A stretch of 7,987 nt of DNA from an archaeon (GTDB taxonomy: Archaea > Hydrothermarchaeota > Hydrothermarchaeia > JALTZZ01 > JALUTC01): positions 1 through 7,987 of the forward strand of contig JALTZH010000253.1 in NCBI GenBank assembly GCA_027051265.1, given 5' to 3'. Positions 1,940 through 7,944 of this stretch are shown here, one piece after another. Under the pieces are notes generated by a model, which had not been told where the DNA came from, made no database searches, and saw nothing but the letters and a program-made list of their open reading frames with translations. Positions within the stretch are counted from its first letter, which is position 1; each line of letters opens with the position of its first letter. The position numbers and the translations under genes were made by a program.

Positions 1940-2835
1940 TCATAACCACTCTCTAATATATTCTATAAGTTTTCTTATTTCTCCCTTATTATATACTTTA
2001 GCAGGTATTAATTCTTTCTGAACATTTTTCGGTATTGATTCCTTATAATCTATTATATATAAGAGAGTTTTCGTTTTAATGTTTTTAAGAAGATCAATTA
2101 GATTTTTAAGCAATTCAATATCTGCAACTATCCTGTTGTCTTCCATTTTATAATCGATATAATCGTATATCGGTAATGCTCCAGACTCGGATAGAAGAAT
2201 AACCGCAAAGTAATATTCTGGTATATTTAAAGAATTCGCCCTTTTTGGTAGAACAAATCTTTCAAGAAGTAATATGTCAAGCAATGCTTCAATTCTTTTC
2301 TTTCTTTCAGTTTCGGTAATGGTTTTATCCCAAACCTCATTATCGTATTTTGAAGGTCTACCTATATATTCGTATATGAGAACATTTAATCTTCCTATTA
2401 TTTCAGCAACTTCAACTTCAAAAATATTGGGAGTACCTTCCTCTCTGGGAAACCTAGCACCAAAATCTGTAGATATAGGTGTATTTCTTATCGATTTAAA
2501 ATAAGATATTGCTACTGGGGCTGTTCTTTTTTATCTTGTCCCTTCCCTTTTCCCCTTTGTGGTACTAAATATCCGAAGATATCATTATCAACATATTCCC
2601 ATGGTTTTCCATGATCTTTTAATTGATCTTTTTCTCTATAAAATGGATCTATCTTAAAGCCTTTTTCTTTTAATCTTTGTCTGATTGCAAATTTAATCGC
2701 TCGAGCAGATATGAACGGATACACGTTACCATGTTCATCATACATCTTTTTAATCGTTATCCTATTACCTATAGATTCATCAGCATTAACGTTTCCATAA
2801 ATTTTTGCAAGAATTGAAATTTGAACACATTTCAT
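1940..2835 (-). CDS. cas7: Cas7, Cascade backbone subunit (DevR/Cst2-like), frameshifted at an A6 run
   Basis: Cas7 forms the multi-copy backbone that coats the crRNA spacer in Cascade. The first frame (2835 to a TAG at 2512) gives 107 residues, starting with a RAMP strand (MKCVQISILAKIYGNVNADE) followed by PFISARAIKFAIRQRL and NDIFGYLV, both typical of the DevR/Cst2 branch. The second frame continues without stops to 1940: KRTAPVAISYFKSI, a region with ERFVLPKRANSL, and a C-terminal helix ending EYIREWL. The frames join at six A's (2527-2532). One additional A, or a -1 slip, gives K102-K103-R-T-A-P and a protein of 298 residues, the usual size. The downstream part has no start codon until a TTG at 2284, so it is not an independent gene. 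The ATG overlaps the cas8-like stop as ATGA. It may be a recent loss of function, a sequence error, or a recoded gene. Family assignment is firm; expression status is not. Confidence 0.88.
2527..2532 (-). other. Frameshift point in cas7 (A6 run)
   Basis: On the coding strand the zero frame reads GAT AAA AAA GAA CAG CCC CAG TAG. The downstream Cas7 frame is reached by adding one A (AAA AAA AGA ACA GCC) or by slipping back one base on the second AAA. A two-codon simultaneous slip is disfavoured, because the first Lys codon would re-pair with TAA. The zero-frame stop lies five codons further on, at 2512-2514. Confidence 0.85.
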
Positions 2836-6900: not shown

Positions 6901-7706
6901 TTAATAAACGAGAAAATCTACATTTTTTATTCTTTTCAATTCTTTTATAGCTCTAAGACATAAGTCCCTTTCTTCTCTTCTAATTATATCTTTAACAGAA
7001 CCGTTACCAAGAAAACTTTTAAGACCCCTAATTATACAGACGGGTATCCTCTCATCCGCTTCACCAAATACGAGATTAGCAATTCCAGCTATATTGTCAG
7101 CTACACATACTATTGTACTCTTTAATGTTCTACCATATATATCTCTATGACCCCTTCTATCATAAATAGATATTATACCACTAGAACCTATTGATGTTCC
7201 TACAGATCCGATTCTGAACGGTCTTCCTATTGAATCTATAATTAAAACAGCGACTCTTTTGCCTGATAATCTCTCGAGTTCTTTTCTTATTGCTCTCGCA
7301 ACATCATCAGGATTTTCTGGTAAAAGTTTAACTTTTCCTTCCTCAACGTTACTTTCATCTATGCCTGCATTTGCGCATACAAATCCATGTTTTGTTTTAA
7401 CAAGCAGAAAATTTTTTGATAGGATTAATATTTCACTAGATTCTCGAAGTATTAGTTCTATAATTCTTGGATCTTTTCCTGTAATTTTTGAAAGTTCTAA
7501 AGCTTTTTGACTAGGAACAATGTCGTTTAAATGAATAACTCTACCTTGCGCTTTTGAGACGATTTTTTCTGTTATTACAACTATATCTCCATCTTCAAGC
7601 TTTAATCCTTTTTTTTTATGGATTCAAAAATTATCTTAGCTAAATTATCTCCTTTTTTTATCATTGGAATATTATCTATAGGTATTATTTCGATTTTATT
7701 TTTCAT
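6901..7706 (-). CDS. cofE: Coenzyme F420-0:L-glutamate ligase CofE, split by a frameshift at an A9 run
   Basis: CofE adds gamma-linked glutamate to F420-0 using GTP, the last step of coenzyme F420 synthesis. Reading from the ATG at 7706 gives MKNKIEIIPIDNIPMIKKGDN and then, after a run of lysines, a stop at residue 35. The remaining frame runs open for 235 codons to a TAA at 6901-6903. It has GLKLEDGDIVVITEKIVSKA, NAGIDESNVEEG (from 113), IIDSIGRPFR (156-165), the D-I-YGR motif (189-193) and CVADNIAGIANL. D117 and D158 correspond in spacing (41 residues) to the metal-binding Asp109 and Asp150 of the Archaeoglobus enzyme; S159 replaces its Thr151. Joining the frames gives 268 residues, close to the family's ~250. 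The large part has no usable start codon, so gene finders will probably miss it. The start overlaps the PRC-barrel gene by 11 bases. Family assignment is very secure; whether the gene is intact is not. Confidence 0.9.
7608..7617 (-). other. Frameshift point in cofE (A9 run followed by G)
   Basis: The coding strand reads ATA AAA AAA AAG GAT TAA in the starting frame. The CofE frame continues as GGA TTA AAG, which is reached by one extra A or by a -1 slip on A_AAA_AAG. That heptamer is in the correct phase and is the classic dnaX-type slippery site; A_AAA_AAT is the site known in the Sulfolobus fucosidase gene. The zero-frame stop follows two codons later. I see no clear downstream hairpin or upstream Shine-Dalgarno-like stimulator. 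Confidence 0.8.
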
Positions 7707-7944
7707 ATAATACTACGTAATCCATTATATTTCTAACATAACTAAATGGTATCAATAAATTGCCGGATTCATCACTTTTGAAATATGTTGAAATCTCTCC
7801 TTTTCTTGGCTTAACAACCAATAATAATATTCTGCCTGAGGAAGTTTCAAAATCTATATCAACAATATTTCCAACAATTATACCACTTTCCGTTATTACT
7901 TGTTTTCCGATCAATTCAGAGCATAGAATTTTCTCTTCATTCAT
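7696..7944 (-). CDS. Small PRC-barrel domain protein
   Basis: An 82-residue stand-alone PRC-barrel. The pattern is LIGKQVITESGIIVGNIVDIDF (11-32), then a DFETSSGRILLLVV strand-turn-strand, and IPFSYVRNIMDYVVL at the end. These fit the family's L-x-G-K-x-V, G-x-x-V-G-x-V-x-D and C-terminal I-P-x-x-x-V-x-x-I-x-D-x-V-x-L features. PRC-barrels occur in RimM and in photosynthetic reaction centre H subunits, and single-domain archaeal copies are common, but their function is not established. It has no signal or membrane segment. It precedes cofE with an 11-base overlap, so the two are probably co-translated; a role in F420 metabolism would be guilt by association only. The ATG at 7944 is preferred because it gives the family's normal N-terminus; the upstream 43 bases are AT-rich with no Shine-Dalgarno. 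Confidence 0.9.
   Translation of the reverse strand: MNEEKILCSELIGKQVITESGIIVGNIVDIDFETSSGRILLLVVKPRKGEISTYFKSDESGNLLIPFSYVRNIMDYVVLYEK

Follow-up and report, generated by a model that had tools for sequence, protein, structure and literature searches.

In the window analyzed here (7,987 bases; one whole contig, C253, of the source genome G000, from an uncultured archaeal genus), the gene for coenzyme F420-0:L-glutamate ligase (cofE) is split between two reading frames at a run of nine A's (A9), and the only other species of the genus that we compared (G001) carries A9 and the same −1 split at the same codon. Judging from these sequences, it is highly probable that recoding of some kind, by the ribosome or by RNA polymerase, yields CofE. 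With less confidence, we also consider it likely that cofE is functional and that a productive, conserved −1 slip of the ribosome at A9 yields its full-length protein. The genus-level comparison comprises two species, both represented by draft assemblies of environmental genomes: G000 (1.46 Mb, 95% complete) and G001 (∼70% DNA identity to G000). The contig sequence compared amounts to about a third of each genome, and the comparison of open frames drew on contigs totaling ∼480 kb in G000 and 347 kb in G001. A contig scan for a further member of the genus found none, the matches coming only from the class (Hydrothermarchaeia-like).

The two-frame cofE gene occupies positions 6901 to 7706 on the minus strand, and its start is overlapped by the 3′ end of an upstream PRC-barrel gene (7696 to 7944, minus strand; PF05239, E = 2.6e-12), an arrangement also present in G001. 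From the ATG at 7706-7704, the zero frame (7602 to 7706, minus strand) runs for 34 codons (MKNKIEIIPIDNIPMIKKGDNLAKIIFESIKKKD), with 30 codons conserved with G001, and reads ATA AAA AAA AAG GAT TAA up to its stop at 7604-7602. The A9 run (7609 to 7617, minus strand; G001:C116:5899-5907 in the other species) holds two heptamers in phase with the zero frame, A_AAA_AAA (7617-7611) and A_AAA_AAG (7614-7608). The rest of the gene lies in the −1 frame (6901 to 7608, minus strand), where 235 codons extend from GGA at 7608 to the stop at 6903-6901, continuing after the lysines as KKKGLKLEDGDIVVITE. In this frame, a TGA sits just before A9, and no ATG, GTG, or TTG occurs in the first 228 of the 240 codons of the open frame. 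A sequence-only reading of this DNA had described a full-length CofE divided at nine A's, a zero frame stopping two codons past the run, and a downstream part without an early start codon; all of this is borne out.

That reading had also predicted that a −1 shift would give the expected protein, and the joined product of 268 amino acids agrees: in a profile search, it scored 302 bits against TIGR01916 (curated cutoff, 180.65) over profile positions 1 to 242 of 244, and it aligns end to end with the solved CofE 2phn. The −1 part alone scored 280.6 bits, from profile position 28 onward. The joined protein thus covers the whole profile of the CofE family (TIGR01916, PF01996; solved structures 2phn, 2g9i, and 7uld), from which the gene described here differs in its interrupted coding frame. 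Relative to 2phn, the lysines encoded by A9 lie within an insertion of five residues, in a segment that varies among relatives, which suggests that a variable number of lysines would be tolerated and fits either mechanism of recoding. CofD and CofH are also encoded in G000, and a check for a second intact cofE, proposed by the sequence-only reading along with an alignment of orthologs, found none in this 95% complete genome.

The alignment of orthologs sets the two genus members apart from their class. In G001, the zero frame of cofE reads MKGKVEIFPLDNLPVIKPGDDLGKIIVDCIKKKELK before its stop and the −1 frame reads KKKGIEIENGDIIVITEK, with a TTG just before the run in the latter. The zero-frame stops differ (GAT TAA after KKKD in G000; GAA TTG AAA TAG, with KKKELK before the stop, in G001), as expected if the shift site alone is kept. 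DNA identity between the species is 69% in the 5′ part and 71% in the 3′ part, and third codon positions vary most, as they do in the neighboring PRC-barrel gene. The dN/dS values by NG86 were 0.281/1.366 before A9 (30 codons) and 0.227/1.253 after it; the ratio of about 0.2 in both halves denotes purifying selection, and the relaxed selection downstream of the break that would mark a pseudogene was not seen. Among the 18 CofE-bearing genomes of the class, cofE is in one frame in 16, the two split ones being the two genus members. Together, the shared split, the dN/dS values, and the unsplit genes of the class indicate that the split arose in the ancestor of the genus and that both halves have been under selection ever since. 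An in-phase slippery heptamer of the form X_XXY_YYZ is typical of −1 programmed ribosomal frameshifting, as are a shift and shift site conserved among orthologs with both frames under selection; these features were found here in two species.

CofE is not the only protein encoded in this way. A pattern search for A9 runs returned four in G001: two in frame, at rpiA and a DHH-like gene, and the others at cofE and the gene for RaSEA (the archaeosine radical SAM enzyme, TIGR01210). The RaSEA gene has a −1 split at A9 in both species, where 12 codons (MKLRLNNNIKKK and MRLKCIEDIKKK in the two species) lead from a homologous ATG, which overlaps the preceding gene, up to A9. Among 30 of the 45 exact A8 runs of G001 that we inspected, nearly all were in frame and one further broken gene emerged, ksgA, whose −1 split falls at the same codon in G000 and G001 (L150 7492-8280 on G000:C194; L248 on G001:C18). 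The site reads CCA AAA AAA ATT TAG (A8) in G001 and CCA AAA AAT TTT TGG (A6T5) in G000. No internal stop was found in the ksgA of 21 other genomes of the class, and the −1 frame of the G001 gene has no usual start codon before residue 22. The in-phase heptamers are A_AAA_AAA in RaSEA and, in ksgA, A_AAA_AAA (G001) and A_AAA_AAT (G000). A homopolymer of about eight to nine or more, the length associated with poly(A) transcriptional slippage, is thus present at cofE and RaSEA in both species and at ksgA in G001, with just A6T5 at ksgA in G000. The N-terminal pieces of cofE and ksgA belong to the family proteins; in RaSEA, the N-terminal piece forms a short leader ahead of the conserved domain. 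All three shared sites need −1 and sit 12 to 33 codons into their genes. As a result, most rounds of translation may stop prematurely, and expression may be low. The products of two of the three genes act on the decoding machinery, KsgA by rRNA dimethylation and RaSEA through tRNA archaeosine.

Outside these genes, breaks were rare. Measured against intact G001 genes, G000 had 2 (ogg and cas7) among 206 open-frame comparisons, and in G001 one credible break, at a T7 run in a cofG/H-like radical SAM gene, was seen among 191; both denominators include some antisense frames, which leaves a smaller number of true gene pairs, perhaps about 120. On a rough calculation assuming ∼120 pairs, about 0.05 genes are expected to be broken by accident in both species, versus three observed, each at the same codon. 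With only three species-specific breaks among about 200 homologous open frames, the comparison indicates that the shared breaks are neither assembly noise nor decay. In G000, about a dozen to fifteen other genes contain A9 in frame, none of which is kept in G001 (where the A9 list is complete for the contigs examined), whereas of the three frame-breaking G000 runs whose G001 ortholog is known, two are retained there (rough exact test against the in-frame runs, P = 0.02).

The proposed mechanism for cofE is as follows. A ribosome on ATA AAA AAA AAG would move back by one base at the tandem lysine codons (A_AAA_AAA or A_AAA_AAG) and resume at GGA TTA AAG, giving a product with ESIKKKGLKLEDG across the junction; ribosomes that do not slip would terminate two codons on. 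RaSEA and KsgA would be made by the same device in this genus, and the low yield of such a slip may be tolerated or used to limit expression. We infer as most likely that the slip takes place and that it is made by the ribosome, not by RNA polymerase. The ribosome is favored because the ksgA of G000 retains the heptamer A_AAA_AAT without a long homopolymer, because all conserved cases are −1, and because nine A's in the phase A_AAA_AAA_AA gave a 40% −1 shift when chlD was tested in E. coli (PMC3711429). Against the ribosome counts the lack of a stable RNA structure 3′ of the site, with z-scores, which do not take in pseudoknots, of 0.18 and −1.67 for cofE in G000 and G001 and 0.51 and 0.27 for RaSEA; a stem-loop or pseudoknot 5 to 9 nt downstream is a common, though not obligatory, feature. 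The in-phase heptamer on which the sequence-only reading had drawn is indeed present but carries no weight, since any A9 holds an in-phase A_AAA_AAA; heptamer phase is informative for ksgA only.

The same protein could arise if RNA polymerase stuttered on A9, as happens in Thermus dnaX and in endosymbionts of insects, and those transcripts that had gained one A (or lost two) were then translated normally into CofE. We regard this explanation as possible but rather unlikely. It draws support from the A9 runs at cofE and RaSEA in both species, which account for two of just four A/T runs of at least nine bases in G001, from the absence of an RNA stimulator downstream, and from a G000 glycosyltransferase gene broken at A10 in the +1 direction, which fits undirected slippage. 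Nine-base runs are a typical threshold for slippage (PMC1088944), and conserved poly(A) frameshifts are rescued in this manner in Blochmannia and Buchnera (PMC3017870). However, the A6T5 of the G000 ksgA is too short for typical homopolymer slippage, −1 is needed at all three conserved sites, about a dozen or more other G000 genes tolerate an in-frame A9, and we found no paper on slippage by archaeal RNA polymerase.

Explanations in which no recoding occurs fare worse. Both assemblies are fragmented drafts, and the breaks lie at A/T runs, most of them resembling one missing base, as if the true genes had ten A's and one had been dropped in both assemblies. This is very unlikely: the error would have to recur at three orthologous genes in two genomes, once at a mere A6T5, although breaks are as rare as given above, runs of A10, A11, and A14 were assembled in G000, and the A9 runs of about fifteen other G000 genes and the 30 inspected A8 sites of G001 are nearly all in frame. 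Less probable again is a pseudogene or phase-variable gene, in which an indel in the run has switched cofE off. Homopolymers are hot spots for indels, and ogg, cas7, and the glycosyltransferase gene of G000 look like species-specific cases; yet the 235 codons past the cofE break are open and under purifying selection in both species, A9 is found in both with no mixture of lengths, cofE is the sole copy in a genome with other F420 genes, and metabolic and RNA-modification genes are not typically phase variable. The sequence-only reading had proposed −1 shifting while leaving room for error or a pseudogene; the split in G001, this selection, and two more genes split alike support productive recoding over both. 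The least probable explanation is a two-chain CofE, whose downstream part would start alone at an unusual start codon and pair with the 34-residue peptide. The conservation of the N-terminal peptide and the TTG before the run in G001 speak for it, but the −1 frame of G000 has a TGA just before the run and none of the three start codons for 228 codons, and the G001 ksgA lacks one before residue 22.

Ribosomal −1 slippage at A-rich sites has precedents in archaea. According to one review, fucA1 was the only archaeal gene for which −1 programmed frameshifting had been demonstrated; its A_AAA_AAT heptamer gave about a 10% shift in Sulfolobus extracts, a putative stem-loop and rare codons accompany the site, and the fucosidases of other Sulfolobales are not split (PMC8211752). 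The genes described here resemble fucA1 of Sulfolobus solfataricus in being archaeal, with an A-rich in-phase heptamer (identical in fucA1 and the G000 ksgA), the N-terminal part in the zero frame, and the rest in the −1 frame; they differ in that no structure was seen at cofE or RaSEA and in that the split is conserved between two species. The comparison with fucA1 drawn in the sequence-only reading is therefore apt, except that fucA1 has no such conservation between species (PMC8211752) and that chlD offers an archaeal parallel just as close (PMC5009743, PMC3711429). In chlD (Mg-chelatase), −1 frameshifting occurs in Methanocaldococcus, Methanococcus, and bacteria (PMC5009743, PMC3711429). 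Its poly(A) site, A_AAA_AAR, is conserved, archaea included, and the tested nine-A phase equals that of cofE; the two parts of chlD are each about 1,000 nt, in contrast to zero-frame parts of 12 to 34 codons with no evident function of their own here. The poly(A) slippage of Blochmannia and Buchnera is similar in its AT-rich genomes, in A-run frameshifts kept between species, and in intact downstream selection (PMC3017870), but the RNA polymerase there is bacterial and the runs have at least nine bases, whereas one conserved case here is A6T5. Our literature search found no paper on a cofE frameshift. With archaeal −1 recoding already known from fucA1 and chlD, the novelty here lies in which genes are involved, in how many of them a single genus contains, and in the conservation of their splits between species; the use of such recoding near the start codon of several genes, conserved between species, is unusual.

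It is conceivable, though doubtful, that the genus uses 5′-proximal −1 frameshifting to regulate enzymes that tune decoding (KsgA and RaSEA) besides CofE, with KsgA regulating itself in the manner of release factor 2. In E. coli, −1 shifting rose from 33.8 to 42.3% on ribosomes without KsgA methylation (PMC11162774), which makes a feedback loop conceivable; speculatively, ribosomes lacking this methylation would shift −1 more often and thereby produce more KsgA. Three housekeeping genes whose −1 split is shared by species of one archaeal genus would mean that some archaea recode as a matter of routine, and this would account for seemingly broken genes in environmental genomes. The same A-rich sites also offer a natural test of ribosome versus RNA polymerase slippage.

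Some breaks at A/T runs are confined to one species, and ordinary indels therefore make up part of the signal. G001, although the more AT-rich, has 4 A/T runs of at least nine bases in about 1 Mb, compared with about 30 in G000. Other candidates from an ab initio scan for breaks proved to be frames on the antisense strand, ordinary overlaps between genes, or upstream DNA. The glycosyltransferase gene of G000 (L144 1367-1376, G000:C98) is split at A10 and needs +1, and no clear ortholog of it was found in G001. In ogg (N-glycosylase/DNA lyase; L155 1498-1506, G000:C23), −1 is needed at A9, and the intact G001 ortholog lacks the run. The cofG/H-like radical SAM gene of G001 (L197, about 1461, G001:C95) requires a −1 shift at T_TTT_TTT, about 13 codons in; its G000 ortholog (L284) is intact. 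Within the window, a cas7 gene (DevR/Csa2-like; 1940 to 2835, minus strand) of the CRISPR cluster has a −1 break near 2530-2545 at GAT AAA AAA GAA (A6); as its G001 ortholog (L200) is intact, the break is probably species specific. Finally, relative to G001, a small-primase-like gene of G000 (L143, minus strand, about 8400-8530, G000:C84) appears to carry additional bases immediately upstream of its first start codon.
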